Positions 1 through 33,508 of a DNA stretch of 33,508 nt are shown here, one piece after another (within the stretch, counting starts at the first letter, position 1; each line of letters opens with the position of its first letter). The position numbers were made by a program, and so were the translations under genes. The stretch is from positions 1 through 33,508 of the forward strand of contig JAADHJ010000022.1 of assembly GCA_013151915.1 (NCBI GenBank). Reading direction: 5' to 3'. Origin of the DNA: Deltaproteobacteria bacterium. Lineage in GTDB: Bacteria; BMS3Abin14. The notes beneath the pieces were generated by a model. It worked only from the letters and a program-made list of their open reading frames with translations. It was not told where the DNA came from and did not search any database.

Positions 1-115
1 CATCAAAGCGCCCGCTTAGGGGCGCTCAAATCGAAGATTTGTGAGGGAAGTGAAAATGACATTTTTCGCTTTCCGTTGAGTAAAAAGCCATGGATGGACT
101 TTTTACGACCCTATA
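1..115 (+). repeat. Five-hairpin element, copy A (cut by window edge)
   Basis: The first hairpin is mostly outside the window; only the end of its right arm (CATCAA) remains. The other four hairpins are visible: a GC-rich one (GCGCCC/GGGCGC), CAAATC-gaa-GATTTG, a long GGGAAGTGAAAA/TTTTCGCTTTCC stem with G-U pairs, and GTAAAAAG/CTTTTTAC. It ends at CGACCCTAT, three bases before the ATG of tolQ. The same unit recurs at 891-1026, 1461-1599 and 29522-29668. Confidence 0.85.
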
Positions 116-890: not shown

Positions 891-1026
891 GTTGATGACT
901 TCGCAAAGAAGTCATCAACGCGCCCACTTAGGGGCGCACAAATCGAAGATTTGTAAGGAAAGAGAAAATGACATTTTTCGCTTTCCGTTAAGTAAAAAGC
1001 CATGAATGGACTTTTTACGACCCTAT
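891..1026 (+). repeat. Five-hairpin element, copy B (complete)
   Basis: Begins one base after the tolQ stop and fills almost the whole tolQ-tolR gap. Hairpin 1 is a perfect 12-bp stem (891-902 with 908-919, GTTGATGACTTC). Hairpin 2 is GCGCCC/GGGCGC (920-925, 932-937). Hairpin 3 is ACAAATC-gaa-GATTTGT (938-954). Hairpin 4 pairs 957-968 with 975-986, with one mismatch. Hairpin 5 pairs GTAAAAAG (992-999) with CTTTTTAC (1011-1018), with CCAT/ATGG inside. It ends GACCCTAT, 21 bases before the preferred tolR start. Confidence 0.93.
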
Positions 1027-1460: not shown

Positions 1461-1599
1461 AATGATGACTTCGTAAGAAATCATCATTGCGCCCACTTGA
1501 GGGTGCGCAAATCGAAGATTTGAGAGGAAAGTGAAAATGACATTTTTCGCTTTCCGTTGAGTAAAAAGCCACGCATGGACTTTTTACGACCCTGTCAAC
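1461..1599 (+). repeat. Five-hairpin element, copy C (complete)
   Basis: Fills the tolR-tolA gap, starting just after the tolR stop. The order of hairpins is the same as in copy B. Hairpin 1 is diverged (ATGATGACTTCGTAAGAAATCATCAT) but still pairs. Hairpin 4 is GGAAAGTGAAAA/TTTTCGCTTTCC, 12 pairs with one G-U. Hairpin 5 keeps GTAAAAAG/CTTTTTAC. It ends CCCTGTCAAC, giving terminal GATGA/TCAAC-like ends, nine bases before the likely tolA start. Confidence 0.92.
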
Positions 1600-4933: not shown

Positions 4934-4982
4934 TGATAGGGTCGTAAAAAGTCCATTGATGACTTTTTGCGAAGTCATCATA
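4934..4982 (-). repeat. Five-hairpin element, copy E (internally deleted, reversed)
   Basis: Read on the minus strand, it is hairpin 1 (GATGACTTCGCAAAAAGTCATC) running straight into the right arm of hairpin 5 (AATGGACTTTTTACGACCCT). The junction falls where the two hairpins share AAAAAG(T/C)CATC, as expected if an internal segment was lost by recombination between those short direct repeats. It sits 14 bases before the next gene's start, but in the opposite orientation to most other copies. Confidence 0.85.
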
Positions 4983-5480: not shown

Positions 5481-5493
5481 GAAACGGCACCGT

Positions 5494-5528
5494 TCCAGAG
5501 TCCAGAGTCCAGAGTCCAGAGTCCAATG
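5494..5528 (+). repeat. Heptamer array TCCAGAG x4 plus TCCAATG
   Basis: Four perfect tandem copies of TCCAGAG (5494-5521) and one variant. A hairpin-prone sequence of the CCGTCGCT...GGCTATGGCG type follows (about 5538-5562). The same combination appears at 29313-29390 and 33158-33235. Confidence 0.85.
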
Positions 5529-5631
5529 CTTGCCACCCGCCGTCGCTTTTGGCTATGGCGTGGTAAACTGGCGCAGTCCGCAGGACAAAGATGGGTCCAA
5601 CGGGGAAAAATAGCTGGAAACTGGAAAAATG

Positions 5632-13121: not shown

Positions 13122-13129
13122 CCCCCCTG

Positions 13130-13213
13130 TGTCAGAGACAGGGATGGATACCAACGTTCAAAGTTCAATGTTCAACGGGGTAAAGAACGTTCAAAGTTCA
13201 ATGTTCAATGACC
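13130..13213 (+). repeat. Heptamer arrays TTCAANG, twice
   Basis: GTGTCAGAGACAGGGATGG followed by ACG-TTCAAAG-TTCAATG-TTCAACG (about 13154-13180), then a second run (about 13187-13210). The unit is a degenerate TTCAANG heptamer. The leading sequence recurs at 13741-13789 together with its own TTCAANG run. Confidence 0.85.
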
Positions 13214-13713: not shown

Positions 13714-13845
13714 GATCCTAGACCCTGCTTTTAGGAAAAGGTGCCAGAGACAGGGATGGATACCAACGTTCAAGGTTCAATGTTCAACGTGATAAAATAG
13801 CTAGATCCTAGACCCTGCTTTTAGGAAAAGGTGCCAGAGACAGGG
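13714..13845 (+). repeat. 42-bp direct repeat with heptamer array between
   Basis: The sequence starting GATCCTAGACCCTGCTTTTA and ending GCCAGAGACAGGG occurs at 13714-13755 and again at 13804-13845, 90 bases apart and essentially identical. A TTCAANG array (about 13766-13789) lies between. This suggests a recent local duplication. The rest of 13600-14056 is AT-rich without a gene. Confidence 0.85.
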
Positions 13846-14379: not shown

Positions 14380-14445
14380 TGATGACATTTTTCGCTTTCC
14401 GTCGAGTAAAAAGCCATTGATGGACTTTTTACGACCCTATCAACC
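14380..14445 (+). repeat. Five-hairpin element, copy F (right half)
   Basis: Begins within the loop of hairpin 4 (ATGACATTTTTCGCTTTCCG) and continues through hairpin 5 to CCCTATCAAC. It ends 37 bases before the glnS start and has the same orientation as the gene. Confidence 0.85.
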
Positions 14446-16180: not shown

Positions 16181-16191
16181 CCTGGCCACGT

Positions 16192-16236
16192 TAAGTAAAA
16201 AGCCATGGATGGACTTTTTACGATCCTATCATAATT
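16192..16236 (+). repeat. Five-hairpin element, copy G (right end)
   Basis: GTTAAGTAAAAAGCCATGG through GGACTTTTTACGATCCTATC is hairpin 5 plus the right terminus only. It lies 12 bases after the glnS stop and upstream of purM. Confidence 0.8.
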
Positions 16237-17402: not shown

Positions 17403-17438
17403 TTGATGACTTTGCAAAAAGTCATCAAGGCACCCATG
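17403..17438 (+). repeat. Five-hairpin element, copy H (left end)
   Basis: TTGATGACTTTGCAAAAAGTCATCAA is hairpin 1 with a trace of hairpin 2 (GGCACCC). It sits between purM and purN, 12 bases before the purN ATG. Confidence 0.75.
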
Positions 17439-17449
17439 GGAAACGACTC

Positions 17450-25412: not shown

Positions 25413-25445
25413 TTGTTGATGACTTTTTACTACGACCCTATCATT
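25413..25445 (+). repeat. Five-hairpin element, copy I (minimal, deleted)
   Basis: GTTGATGACTTTTTACTACG and CGACCCTATCA join the left terminus (hairpin 1 left arm) directly to the right arm of hairpin 5. It lies between the divergently transcribed cyclase and receiver genes. Confidence 0.7.
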
Positions 25446-25447
25446 GT

Positions 25448-27565: not shown

Positions 27566-29056
27566 CTACGCGTACATCGATGCCATGGCCCCGCTGGAAG
27601 CCATGGCATCCACTATCTTCCTGAGGACGGCGACCACCTCGGGGTCGAACTGGGTTCCCACGCAGTTTTCCATCTCCTTCATTGCCGCGTCGAGACTGAG
27701 AGGATCACGGTAGGGCCGCTTTGTAGTCATAGCGTCGAAGGCGTCTGCGGCGGCCAGAATTCTCGCCTCCAGGAGAATTTGGTCAGACCGGTAACCGTTG
27801 GGATATCCCTTCCCATCGGGCCTCTCGTGGTGCTGAAGTACGGCCAGTTTGACCGTTTCATTAAAATCGATGGGTTGAAGGATACGATAGCCCACGTCAG
27901 GGTGGATCTGGATTTTCCGATATTCATCCGGGTTAAGACCGGTCGGCTTGTTTAGAATGGCGAGTTCCACGGTTATTTTCCCTATATCGTGAAGAACCCC
28001 GGCCTGCTGGATAATCTCCATCCGATCCAGCGGAAAGTTCATCTGTTCAGCGATCAGGAGGCTGTACTGTGTGACCCGCTCGGAATGGCCCCTGGTGTAG
28101 ACATCCTTGGCTTCAACGGCGGTGATGAGAGACTGGACCATTGCGAAATAGCTCTTCTGGACCTTTTCGAGAAGGAGGACGTTGTGAAGGGCCATGGCCG
28201 CTTCCGAGGTCATGGTCGCCAGTAATGTACGTTCGGCCTCCACGAAAGGCTGGCCGTTGTCCTTATTGATCAGTGTGATGACCCCAATGAGATCGTCCCT
28301 GATCATGATGGGGGCGGAGATGGCCGTCTTTCTCCTGTAGCCGATGCTGCTGGTGGCGGAGAAAAAATCCTGGGATGAGAAATCCTTTACGAGCAGGGGC
28401 TTTTTATTTTTTGCCACCCATCCCGCCATCCCATTGCCCACCTTGACCCTGCGCCTGTCGCCGGGGCTCTCCTTCAACCCCTGGGAGTATTCCATGACCA
28501 TCTCGTCCTTATCCCTGTCATAAAGAAGGATGTGGCCGATCTCGGCGCCCATGAGTTCTCTGGGCAGGGCTACGAGCATTCGATAGATCTCCCGGCGGTC
28601 GTGTTCAATGCCCAGCATGCGGCTGATCTGATTGAGTGCCGACAACCTGTTGATAGCCTCATTGAGGCTTCTATTTTTTTTCTCCATGTCGGTGTTCAGG
28701 CCGGACACGACCCCATGGGCATTCCGTACCTCTTTGAGTTGTTTTTCCAGCTGCCTGGACAGGTCTTCCTTTTCAAGGATGTGCTCCATCTCCTTCTTTT
28801 CGTACGCGTGCATTCGCTGCTGGTATTTTTCCAGATGATTCAGGTCGGAAACGGCGTTGTGAAAGAAACGGTAATGCTGACTGGCTTCCTTTAGAAAGGG
28901 AAATCGGATCAGCGGTACGTCAACCGATCCGTCGCCTTTTCTGAGGGCCGAGGCGACACGGTTCAACCTGTGAAGAGAAACAAGAAAATACACCAATACG
29001 GCAAGGCAGACGAGGCCCAGCAGGATTGCGGGAACTGTCATATTTTGAAGACTCAT
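27566..29056 (-). CDS. GAF/HD-GYP protein, predicted c-di-GMP phosphodiesterase
   Basis: A 496-residue protein with one N-terminal membrane helix (about 7-27), a coiled coil (about 65-140), a GAF domain (about 145-295) and an HD-GYP domain (about 300-480). The metal-binding HD (LHDIGK, 355-360) and the hallmark HHERPDGKGYP (409-419) are both intact, so hydrolysis of c-di-GMP is expected. It starts at ATG 29056. The region upstream on its strand includes a perfect inverted repeat (29129-29154) that could be an operator. Being next to a cyclase and a kinase suggests a local c-di-GMP circuit. Confidence 0.94.
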   Translation of the reverse strand: MSLQNMTVPAILLGLVCLAVLVYFLVSLHRLNRVASALRKGDGSVDVPLIRFPFLKEASQHYRFFHNAVSDLNHLEKYQQRMHAYEKKEMEHILEKEDLSRQLEKQLKEVRNAHGVVSGLNTDMEKKNRSLNEAINRLSALNQISRMLGIEHDRREIYRMLVALPRELMGAEIGHILLYDRDKDEMVMEYSQGLKESPGDRRRVKVGNGMAGWVAKNKKPLLVKDFSSQDFFSATSSIGYRRKTAISAPIMIRDDLIGVITLINKDNGQPFVEAERTLLATMTSEAAMALHNVLLLEKVQKSYFAMVQSLITAVEAKDVYTRGHSERVTQYSLLIAEQMNFPLDRMEIIQQAGVLHDIGKITVELAILNKPTGLNPDEYRKIQIHPDVGYRILQPIDFNETVKLAVLQHHERPDGKGYPNGYRSDQILLEARILAAADAFDAMTTKRPYRDPLSLDAAMKEMENCVGTQFDPEVVAVLRKIVDAMASSGAMASMYA

Positions 29057-29284: not shown

Positions 29285-29390
29285 AATCTGGAATCCAACG
29301 TCCAACGTGACAAAAAGAGTCCAGAGTCCATCCACCTTCGCTCTGCGAGCTATGGCGGACAGGGAGTCCAGTGTCCAGAGTCCAGAGGGG
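29285..29390 (+). repeat. Heptamer array (TCCAGAG/TCCAACG type) with hairpin core
   Basis: TCCAACGTCCAACG, then GTCCAGAGTCCATCC, a hairpin-prone CCTTCGCTCTGCGAGCTATG segment, then TCCAGTGTCCAGAGTCCAGAG. Same composite as at 33158-33235 and similar to 5494-5562. Confidence 0.8.
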
Positions 29391-29441
29391 GAGAGCAGAT
29401 TTGGTCTTTTAAATTTTAAATTTAACCGTATTGACCTTTTT

Positions 29442-29457
29442 GGTATGGTTCTTGTAA
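29442..29457 (+). promoter_or_regulatory. Weak sigma-54-like or sigma-70 promoter before the dual GGDEF/HD-GYP gene
   Basis: TGGTATGGTTCTTGTA differs at two of 16 positions from the PEP-CTERM gene promoter (32278), but the -12 GC is GT. TTGACC at 29433 with TAAGAT 18 bases on is a possible sigma-70 alternative. Confidence 0.3.
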
Positions 29458-29521
29458 GATAACACTCCGGTTTACCATGAGGGGACAAAGGGGATTTCTG
29501 CGTATTGCCGGGGGAGTCATA

Positions 29522-29668
29522 GTTGATGACTTCGCAAAAAGTCATCAACGCGCCCACTGAGGGGCGCCCGAATCAACGGCTTGTCCCGCAAGTCGTTGAT
29601 TCGAGAGGAAAGTGGAAACGACGCTTTTCGCTTTCCGAGGAGTAAAAAGCCATCAATGGACTTTTTAC
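29522..29668 (+). repeat. Five-hairpin element, copy J (complete, enlarged hairpin 3)
   Basis: Hairpin 1 GTTGATGACTT/AAGTCATCAAC (29522-29549). Hairpin 3 is enlarged: CGAATCAACGGCTTG (29569-29583) pairs with CAAGTCGTTGATTCG (29589-29603), 15 pairs with one G-U, in place of CAAATC/GATTTG. Hairpin 4 GGAAAGTGGAAA/TTTTCGCTTTCC uses two G-U pairs. After TTTTTACGA the usual CCCTAT is replaced by GGTG, giving the downstream gene's Shine-Dalgarno. Confidence 0.92.
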
Positions 29669-29681
29669 GAGGTGCAAACAG

Positions 29682-31817
29682 TTGAAACGTGGAGAAAAAT
29701 ACATCGTCCAGGTCGCTCCCGAATTAGATGTCCGGGTTGCGCAGGGGTGGATAAAGAATCTCAATGTCCTGCTCAAGTCCACCATGATCTACAGCCTGAA
29801 TCTCAAGATGTCCTCCGCCCTGAACGTCATGATGGATCTGGTGATGGACATTGTCCCTTACGACCGGGCTCTCTTCTACCTGCTTGACGATGATGAAAAA
29901 CAGTACCACCCATCCCTGGTGAGGGGATTCGAGGAGACCTTTCCCCCTCAACTCAGCCTTGGCAACATCGTCCTGGACTGGACCGTAGAGAACCACCAGC
30001 CAGTCCGGATCGACAACCCTGACACCAAAACCCTGGAAGAACTTGCCTATTACACCGGCTGCCGATCGGCGGTCTCAATCCCCATTTCCCACGACAATAG
30101 GGTAAAGGGGGTCCTCCAGATATTCAAGACGGAAGCCAACAGCTTCAGTGACGAGAATGTAAGAATGCTGTGGATCCTGGCCCTCCAGATGGAAGGGATG
30201 TTCCACCGCCTGTTCAAGGCCCAGTATCCATCGGGTCTGGAGAAGGACCCGTTCACCGATCTGCCGAGGCGCGCCGTTTTCGAGCAGGAGTTGGAAAAGG
30301 AACTCATTCGGTCCCGACGAAACAGCAACCCGTTCAGTGTTCTGCTGGTTGATATCGATGGTTTCAAGGAACTGAAGGTGGCTGTCATGTCCCTGGAAGG
30401 GGACATAATGGTCAGGGAAGTGTCGTCCCTCATCGGTAAGGTAATCCGGCGCATCGACATCATGGCCCGTTATTCCGAATCCTGCATTGGATTGATCCTC
30501 CCGGATGCCGATGCACAGAAGGCAAACGTTTTTGCCAACCGGATCAAAACCATGGTTTCCGCCAACAAGATGAAGGGGATTGCCGGCCATGCCTCCCTGG
30601 GGCTCACCGTCAGTGTGGGCGTGTCCACCTTCCCGGGGTCTGTTACCCAGTTGGAACTGCTTCAGGGCGCCGAAGAAGCTGCCCGGCGCGCCCGTACCCA
30701 GGGCGGAAATGCGGTGGAAAAACACCTGGGCACCCTGGCAAGGGCGCAGGGAGATCCCGTCGCCATCCAGATCCAGGAACTGCTGTCCTCCATGGGAAGA
30801 TTCTTCAACCTGGATGCCCTGCTGGAGCAACTGGTCTATTTCTATTCCCGTGCCGCCCGAGCCGGCAGGGTATCCATCCTCGTTCTCAATGACAACGGGG
30901 CGGCCCTCCGTTTTATCCAGGGAACCGGGTTTCATGGGTTTGAAGAGGATATACGCGCCATGTCCCTGCCCCTGAAGAACAGCATCAGCGGCAGTGTGGT
31001 GCGGACAAAACGCCCACTCCTTATTCAGGATATCGAGCGAACAATCCCCAAAAGGCCGCGGGGGAGGCTCAACTATACATCTCCTTCCTTTATGAGTGTC
31101 CCCCTGATCCACGGCGATGATGTCGTGGGGGTTATGAACCTGAGCAACCCGGTAAATGGAGAGGCGTTTGAAAAGGAGGACCTTGACCATATTCTGCCCA
31201 TGGCCCAGGGCGTGGCGGAACTCATAGCCGAAGGCAAGCGCTTCACCAAAGCCCAGGAGGGCTTCTTCAGCCATACGGCGGATGTACTCCTGGGGGTTGC
31301 CGAGGAGAAGAGCCCATACCTGTCGGGGCACAGTGACAGAGTGGCGCAGTTCTCCCTTGGTCTTGCCAAAAAGATGGGATACTCAGCGGGCGACGCCGAG
31401 GTTCTGGCCAGGTCGGCCAAGTTCCACGACCTCGGCCGCATAGCTATTGACGAGGCGTTGCTAAGCAAGGCGGGGGACCTGGAGGAGGACGAGAGGGAGC
31501 AGGTAAAGGCCCACCCCATCTGGAGTTATCGGATACTGGAGTCCATCCCGGGGATGGATGTGGACCTGGCGTCGGTAAAGGCCCACCACGAGAGGTACGA
31601 CGGAAAAGGGTATCCGGATGGCCTGCTGGGCGAGGAGATCCCCATGGGCGCCCGAATCATGGCGGTGGCAGACTGCTACGACGCCTTGACGAGCGACCGT
31701 CCATACCGCCCCGCCATGAAACGCGAAGATGCGCTGAAAATCATGGACAACAACAACTGGTCACAGTTCGATGGCCGCGTGGTCAAAGCGTTCAAGGCCA
31801 TGGACATTGAGCATTAA
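29682..31817 (+). CDS. GAF - degenerate GGDEF - GAF - HD-GYP protein
   Basis: A 711-residue soluble protein: GAF (about 35-180), GGDEF-like (about 185-350), second GAF (about 365-525) and HD-GYP (about 530-711). The GGDEF site reads SESCI (265-269, in MARYSESCIG), so cyclase activity should be absent, although VDIDGFK before it is kept. The HD-GYP domain has FHDLGR (581-586) and intact HHERYDGKGYPDG (635-647), so it is probably an active phosphodiesterase gated by GAF and pseudo-GGDEF modules. It starts at TTG 29682, with GAGGTG six to seven bases upstream, formed at the repeat's end. Confidence 0.92.
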   Translation: MKRGEKYIVQVAPELDVRVAQGWIKNLNVLLKSTMIYSLNLKMSSALNVMMDLVMDIVPYDRALFYLLDDDEKQYHPSLVRGFEETFPPQLSLGNIVLDWTVENHQPVRIDNPDTKTLEELAYYTGCRSAVSIPISHDNRVKGVLQIFKTEANSFSDENVRMLWILALQMEGMFHRLFKAQYPSGLEKDPFTDLPRRAVFEQELEKELIRSRRNSNPFSVLLVDIDGFKELKVAVMSLEGDIMVREVSSLIGKVIRRIDIMARYSESCIGLILPDADAQKANVFANRIKTMVSANKMKGIAGHASLGLTVSVGVSTFPGSVTQLELLQGAEEAARRARTQGGNAVEKHLGTLARAQGDPVAIQIQELLSSMGRFFNLDALLEQLVYFYSRAARAGRVSILVLNDNGAALRFIQGTGFHGFEEDIRAMSLPLKNSISGSVVRTKRPLLIQDIERTIPKRPRGRLNYTSPSFMSVPLIHGDDVVGVMNLSNPVNGEAFEKEDLDHILPMAQGVAELIAEGKRFTKAQEGFFSHTADVLLGVAEEKSPYLSGHSDRVAQFSLGLAKKMGYSAGDAEVLARSAKFHDLGRIAIDEALLSKAGDLEEDEREQVKAHPIWSYRILESIPGMDVDLASVKAHHERYDGKGYPDGLLGEEIPMGARIMAVADCYDALTSDRPYRPAMKREDALKIMDNNNWSQFDGRVVKAFKAMDIEH

Positions 31818-33084: not shown

Positions 33085-33235
33085 AAGGTCCAACGTCCAA
33101 GAGCAGGCTATAGGGTGAAGATCGTTCAACGTTCAAAGTTCAATGTTCAACGGGGGAAAGCAGTCCAGAGTCCAGTGTCCATCCGCCTTCGCTGAAGCTA
33201 CGGCGCGACAGGGTGTCCAGGGTCCAGAGTCCAGA
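33085..33235 (+). repeat. Composite heptamer arrays
   Basis: TCCAACGTCCAAGAG, then TTCAACG-TTCAAAG-TTCAATG-TTCAACG (33125-33152), then GTCCAGAGTCCAGTGTCCATCC, a hairpin-prone CCGCCTTCGCTGAAGCTACG segment, then GTCCAGGGTCCAGAGTCCAGAG. Both heptamer families sit side by side here. Confidence 0.85.
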
Positions 33236-33508
33236 GGGGAAGAGCGGATGCAGGGACACGGGGAGGATAAGCACAAGGCCTGTCATCGTGCCTGTCCTGC
33301 CATAGCTCGAAGAGCGACGGCGGAAGCGATCCCGTGGGGCGACCATGGGGAGCCGTGAAAATTCTGATTTAACAGGGATAAAGGGGATTAAAGGAGGGTT
33401 TTGGGTTTAAGCCGTAGGGCGCGGGGTTTCTCGCAGATGAAGGCTTTGGGTTGCGGCCGTAGGCCGCCAAAGCGCATTGAAAGGTATGATCTTTGCCCTT
33501 TTCAGTTT
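33236..33508. other. Repeat-like non-coding tail
   Basis: No gene recognised. It holds a reverse-oriented CCATAGCTCGAAGAGCGACG segment like the hairpin core of the heptamer arrays, a degenerate GGGATAAAG-GGGATTAAAG run (about 33374-33394), and a perfect short hairpin GCGGCC-gta-GGCCGC (33453-33467) without a T-run. It may continue into a feature past the window edge. Confidence 0.5.

Follow-up and report, generated by a model that had tools for sequence, protein, structure and literature searches.

The long third hairpin of copy J is a common form of the repeat to which J belongs, and J is neither unique nor chimeric. With a probability of roughly 0.7, we regard J (29522-29668 of the window, that is, of the whole stretch of 33,508 nucleotides analysed here) as a long-form copy of a MITE-like, non-autonomous element, whose hairpin 3 would change in length by 20-nt steps and whose movement would depend on a transposase supplied in trans. 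The parts of J, the features of its site and the other copies found in the window are listed in Table 1.

Table 1. Coordinates of copy J, its surroundings and the other element copies in the window
Feature	Position	Strand	Basis
Copy A, short hairpin 3, truncated by the window start	1..111	+	similarity
Copy B, short hairpin 3	891..1023	+	similarity; fold
Copy C, short hairpin 3	1463..1592	+	similarity
Copy E, hairpin 1 fused to the 3' end	4939..4980	-	model match at 4939-4970; inverted-repeat arms
Copy F, internally deleted (hairpin 4 remnant and hairpin 5), flanks CAACCTTG	14382..14437	+	model match; flanks read
Copy G, hairpin 5 fragment	16189..16226	+	model match
Copy H, hairpin 1 fragment	17403..17439	+	model match
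Promoter-like site upstream of J, 9 of 12	29431..29460	+	consensus scan; 1 found, shuffle mean 0.3
AGTTGA, possible target-site duplication of J, 5' copy	29521..29526	+	read from sequence
J hairpin 1, also the element 5' end	29522..29549	+	fold; 96.8% standard pairs over 126 copies; 9 double-changed cells
J hairpin 2	29550..29567	+	fold; 98.4% standard pairs; 10 double-changed cells
J hairpin 3, long 35-nt two-arm form	29569..29603	+	fold; 92.3% standard pairs; 96 double-changed cells
J hairpin 4	29607..29636	+	fold; 98.8% standard pairs; 32 double-changed cells; five pair types at 29613/29630
J hairpin 5, 3' arm within the element 3' end	29642..29668	+	fold; 95.7% standard pairs; 72 double-changed cells
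GAGGTG, plausible ribosome-binding site in the J tail	29669..29674	+	inferred; 7 nt before the TTG at 29682
AGTTGA, possible duplication, 3' copy, contains the TTG start codon	29680..29685	+	read from sequence
Gene with GAF, GGDEF and HD_5 downstream of J	29682..31817	+	ORF; Pfam

Long and short third hairpins across copies and genomes

The inverted repeat that forms hairpin 3 of J has two 15-nt arms (29569-29583 and 29589-29603) that are 93% complementary (14 positions plus one G-T) around a 5-nt spacer, and it ranks second among the 48 inverted repeats of the window with arms of at least 9 nt lying no more than 60 nt apart. RNA folding of 29520-29680 gave five adjacent hairpins at -75.9 kcal/mol (z -8.85), and none of the 200 shuffled sequences was equally stable. 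Both analyses confirmed the 15-bp stem, TCCCG loop and single G-U pair given in the preliminary description; the predicted structure adds a sixteenth pair, between the T and the G at the two ends of the loop, and so leaves a 3-nt loop. The flanking hairpins were likewise unchanged in form, as had been stated, with hairpin 4 differing by three bases from the common long form. Copy B, folded at 890-1025, also has five hairpins (z -8.96), its hairpin 3 being short. The preliminary description had further taken CAAATC-gaa-GATTTG as the form of the other copies, which holds for the three window copies that keep hairpin 3 (starting at 1, 891 and 1463) but not genome-wide, where long forms are about as common as short ones.

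The copy numbers in J's own genome (2.27 Mb in 60 contigs) are high for both forms. Searches with J and with copy B returned at least 49 and at least 63 matches, respectively, both of which are lower bounds because only 40 candidates were scored in each search (out of 304 and 289 at first look). A pattern for the long hairpin 3, allowing up to three mismatches, was found at 68 places per strand, the places on the two strands being mostly identical because the pattern is nearly palindromic; at least eight of them have a 55-nt form. The short-form pattern was found at 92 places, five of which were judged long, leaving about 87 short ones and about 155 hairpin-3 places altogether. The alignment comprises 93 copies with a minimum length of 110 nt, J being the closer reference for 44 and B for 49; they were picked by similarity to one or the other and are not a random sample. 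Models run on 433.5 kb (the window and 20 further stretches of 20 kb) gave 47 matches, of which 13 were at least 105 nt long and many were fragments, some being the same palindromic hairpin on the opposite strand. Long and short forms also occur side by side in arrays: one (L020) combines a long copy with two short ones, and another (L045) a short with a long copy.

Among the family genomes, J matched 11 of 12 (its own included), among them the metagenome-assembled genomes CSMAG_1715, SZUA-178 and PFL40, and it matched none of the 49 genomes of other families. The only family genome examined that lacked any match to J was G002. A Mariprofundaceae metagenome-assembled genome contained one full copy and three partial matches. 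Long copies were read in all ten other matching genomes, and these, together with the 68 or so long places in the own genome, bear out the second subfamily proposed in the preliminary description. A strict pattern for copies with CGAATC arms found one more in the own genome (C33:10500-10534); such arms are also frequent in G007 and occur in G004 and further genomes. Short forms were seen only in the own genome (G000) and in G001, which belongs to the same genus and had them at three of its ten listed places; this survey rests on listings for G000, G001, G003 and G007 and elsewhere on a long-copy model, which a few short forms might escape. The long form is therefore family-wide, and short forms were seen only in the own genus. 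This distribution suggests that the long form is probably the older one and that the change ran from long to short. The tree of copies, with support values of 0.31, 0.28 and 0.22 around J, was useless for rooting.

That J is mis-assembled or a chance palindrome is extremely improbable. The genome is fragmented, and at least four contig ends lie inside repeat copies; nevertheless, J is interior to its 33.5-kb contig, and many full-length relatives, in other genomes too, share 81-89% identity with it over its whole length. These relatives rule out the single, chimeric or mis-assembled copy without kin that, by the preliminary description, would have counted against its reading. The contig ends in question (C43, C39, C59 and C30 of the own genome) suggest that the assembly probably breaks at repeat arrays, since they fall within copies.

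Some further observations concern copies and other repeats. Composite copies were seen on CSMAG_1715 and SZUA-178 contigs (L061, L063, L066, L072, L074, L077 and L084), in which another, divergent element that lacks hairpin 1 sits inside hairpin 3 of a canonical one; several loci share the junction sequence, as though the composite had spread as a unit. In the window, a remnant of about 25 nt (copy I, 25416-25446) is flanked by two ATTGTT. A second repeat family, CAACGTTCAAAGTTCAATGTTCAACG-like, lies at 13129-13184, 13741-13796 and 33104-33159, and such stretches also adjoin several element copies.

Length steps and paired changes in hairpin 3

Three lengths of hairpin 3 were observed: the 15-nt form (CAAATC-GAA-GATTTG) folds to 6 bp, the 35-nt form to 16 bp and the form of about 55 nt, read in nine copies, to 26 bp. 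In the long form, either 15-nt arm can nearly pair with itself, and there is direct similarity between the two arms as well; in an analysis of 126 long copies, of which 7 were not 35 nt, the observed arm self-complementarity was reached in 0.2-2% of column-permutation trials. Because of this property of the arms, loss of 20 nt leaves a one-arm hairpin, and the length changes in steps of 20 nt. Two predicted deletion products were found: CAAATCGTTGATTTG occurs twice in tandem on contig C42, and CAAATCAAAGATTTG, at G001:C39:73711, is identical to the first arm of a long hairpin located at G001:C39:56692. The preliminary description had argued that random drift would hardly alter both arms in a coordinated way. 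As worded, this was not supported: the long and short forms are separated by one 20-nt indel, so that no coordinated mutation is needed, and of the eight differences between the J hairpin and the long consensus over 35 nt, only the pair 29570/29602 is altered on both sides (A-T to G-C), with the G-T intermediate present in copy L004. A single 20-nt step together with ordinary substitutions is the best account of how J differs from its neighbours in the window.

Under the favoured explanation, the three forms of hairpin 3 would contain a quasi-palindromic arm once, twice or three times, and slippage or recombination between similar arms would gain or lose 20 nt (a 15-nt arm and a 5-nt loop), each such event taking the stem one step along the series 6, 16 and 26 bp. 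One arm may be copied onto the other, sometimes in inverted form, by template switching inside the hairpin, and J would be the two-arm form with stepwise substitutions. According to PMC8794818, a single template-switch event can alter a stem on both sides, insert into it and invert its loop, and inverted loops or whole inverted hairpins are a footprint of the process. In our data, hairpin 3 of copy L008 is the exact reverse complement of hairpin 3 in four other copies, as template switching predicts. Of the 44 copies compared, one had no hairpin 3 by pattern and three of the other 43 were not 35 nt long; the remaining 40 hairpins comprised 34 nearer to the forward consensus, 4 nearer to the inverted one and 2 equally near (J among them). 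Unlike the RNA genes treated in that study, where paired changes with loop inversion are described as extremely rare, the present case concerns a repeat family with few inverted hairpins.

An exchange, in which J acquired its hairpin 3 from another element through recombination or gene conversion, had also been proposed. Compared with its nearest copies, J is less similar in hairpin 3 (0.71-0.79) than in the rest of the element (0.91-0.94), its TCCCG loop is that of the 55-nt form, and long and short copies adjoin in arrays. However, no donor was found: the best match to the J hairpin reached only 0.886 (L002), and this copy is also alike outside it (0.877), with the same CGACGC loop in hairpin 4. 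Thus, we consider such an exchange very unlikely.

The five-hairpin structure was further compared across 126 long copies, comprising 44 from the own genome, 81 from ten family genomes and one from the Mariprofundaceae; some lack hairpin 1, and the 84 copies collected elsewhere were reduced by 2, a composite and a short one. Over the 56 pairs of the J fold, 95.9% of the combinations were standard, as compared with a mean of 92.9% and a maximum of 93.2% in shuffles. The cells changed on both sides numbered 219 against a shuffle mean of 64 and a maximum of 85; these are counts of cells and not of independent events, because kinship was ignored and the structure was derived from J. When the partners were slid by 1 to 3 columns as a control, only 37.4-49.7% of the pairs were standard and 19-77 cells were double-changed. 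The double-changed cells were concentrated at certain pairs, with 54 at 29643/29667 and 26 at 29613/29630. Compensatory changes in the hairpins therefore exceed those in shuffles.

Ends, flanks and the probable insertion site of J

The element is about 135-151 bp long and gene-free. By gene predictions from a simple script, 79 of 94 clusters in the own genome lie outside genes and 15 overlap them, and 7 of 60 clusters in the other genomes overlap predicted genes. Flanking direct repeats of at least 6 nt, typically AATATT, AACATT, AAGGTT or AATGTT, were present in 17 of 49 non-tandem copies and absent in 32, whereas 2000 permutations gave 1.7 such copies on average and never more than 8. Of the 93 aligned copies, this test set aside 7 whose end was unclear, and from the 86 that were left a flank-pattern filter removed 37 as tandem, some of which may be single copies. 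Such repeats were more frequent in long copies (15 of 30) than in short ones (2 of 19; Fisher p 0.006), which suggests that the long copies are younger insertions. In the alignment, the two ends of the element (TTGATGACTTCGCAAAAAGTC and TTGATAGGGTCGTAAAAAGTC) are imperfect inverted repeats of each other. Its size, copy number and flanking repeats give the element a MITE-like appearance, with imperfect ends and no transposase found in the intervals described below. We propose that a transposase supplied in trans would recognise the ends, that insertion would occur between genes, often at AANNTT-like sites, with duplication of about 6 bp, and that a candidate autonomous partner would be bounded by TTGATRNNNTCGYAAAAAGTC.

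Between facing ends, 24 intervals of 0.5-4.5 kb were listed, and Pfam scans of proteins from seven of them, and of three from G275, detected no transposase; of ten proteins encoded between facing ends, seven matched ordinary Pfam families and three matched none. A relationship to REP/BIME repeats mobilised with RAYT was rejected: Y1_Tnp matches occurred in 10 of 14 genomes, but no element copies or end motifs lay near those whose surroundings were examined (7 of 25 matches; a single match at chance level, E 0.85). A known RNA family was also rejected, as Rfam gave no match in the window and only three hits far below the gathering score (E 0.47-0.84).

The ends extend beyond the family. A 3'-end pattern with at most one mismatch was found in 12 of 290 genomes, namely nine family genomes, G051 (1 place), G103 (18) and G275 (81), the last having 382 ends by a related pattern. 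The small repeats of G275 and G103, which belong to other families, share the ends TTGATGNNNTCGTAAAAAGTC as inverted pairs with J's element; they differ from it in having unrelated palindromic interiors, with ends often about 100-170 bp apart, and lack the five-hairpin body (L164-L168, L128). The end pattern also matched four viral contigs. J itself had no match in plasmid and phage collections.

At its own site, J precedes a gene matching Pfam GAF, GGDEF and HD_5, in agreement with the preliminary description; we take HD_5 here to be HD-GYP. Two divergent GAF/HD_5 genes (27566-29056 and 29682-31817) flank J, and this pair is present in G002 too. J adjoins the start of the second, which additionally has GGDEF. 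The G002 orthologue appears to start at the TTG matching 29682, and the divergent HD gene is conserved there as well. No copy of the element was found around six full-length orthologues of the gene downstream of J (45-58% protein identity), which come from other genera and include that of G002; two of these loci contain N runs. The insertion of J seems to have hit the start codon of the GGDEF/HD gene, and the AGTTGA pair may mark the duplicated target, of which the automatic test recognised just four letters (AGTT), short of the 6 nt that it required. We infer that J is probably transcribed at this site and would supply the ribosome-binding site from its tail. A terminator consensus scan found none in J, its sole match lying on the minus strand at 29723-29707. 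Repeats of the AGTCCAGAGTCC type occur at 5492-5534, 29316-29400 and 33167-33249, one block lying directly upstream of J.

Selection, related repeats and significance

A question raised by the paired changes is whether selection acts on each copy, the element being a host-domesticated RNA or single-stranded DNA module and the changes being selected compensations. The compensatory changes occur in several hairpins across genera, and in co-directional gaps of the own genome, sense copies outnumber antisense ones by 46 to 11 (p 3e-6; a first pass gave 43 to 12). In addition, minority letters among the short copies are few in the hairpin-4 loop (25 of 294) and in hairpin 3 (2 of 735), and far more numerous in the hairpin-2 (86 of 288) and hairpin-5 (65 of 293) loops. 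On the contrary, the orientation bias was not significant in other genomes (26 to 17, p 0.22), the copies are many and fragmented, with the gene overlaps noted above and none in G002, the choice of copies by similarity favours conserved regions, and the paired changes are obtainable by template switching alone. Overall, we consider domestication unlikely, and the mobile element with a stepwise hairpin 3 is the preferred reading. The low variation of the hairpin-4 loop and of the short hairpin 3 nonetheless favours some constraint but does not establish a function.

Small repeats of this kind are known from other bacteria. Two reviews (PMC10969869, PMC2229807) describe bacterial MITEs such as Correia/NEMIS, RUP and ERIC, with which J's element shares a size below 200 bp, the absence of genes, many intergenic copies, flanking duplications and stable RNA folds; they also have inverted ends, which are imperfect in J's element. 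According to PMC2229807, most such repeats form stem loops by pairing of their 5' and 3' ends, CIR with its two arms excepted; J's element, unlike these, has five separate hairpins in a row. The BOX elements of Streptococcus pneumoniae, as described in PMC3049150, are likewise modular, with inverted ends, duplications, a middle module that may be absent or repeated and a conserved predicted RNA fold. In contrast to BOX, one hairpin of J's element varies by 20-nt steps, and its sequence and host lineage are different; the resemblance to the boxA-boxB-boxC arrangement is one of organisation. A full-text search for the end sequence ACTTTTTACGA returned no title naming a bacterial repeat, and the family was not found in the portions of the literature on MITEs, hairpins, BOX, Correia and template switching that were searched.

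These findings replace a puzzling coordinated change by a simple and testable ladder of hairpin lengths. The 126 aligned long copies, 125 of which come from eleven genomes of one family, offer a natural data set in which template switching can be set against selection. The findings also suggest that distant bacteria have mobile ends in common, around different interiors. A more speculative thought, which we hold to be doubtful, is that selection maintains the five-hairpin body of this mobile repeat as an RNA or single-stranded DNA module, which would have spread through a single uncultured lineage as a portable leader or a piece between cistrons. Its hairpin 3 would then be tunable, each 20 nt adding 10 bp, or about one helical turn, and thereby setting the strength of its effect, and its ends would be drawn from a wider set that carries different interiors in unrelated bacteria.
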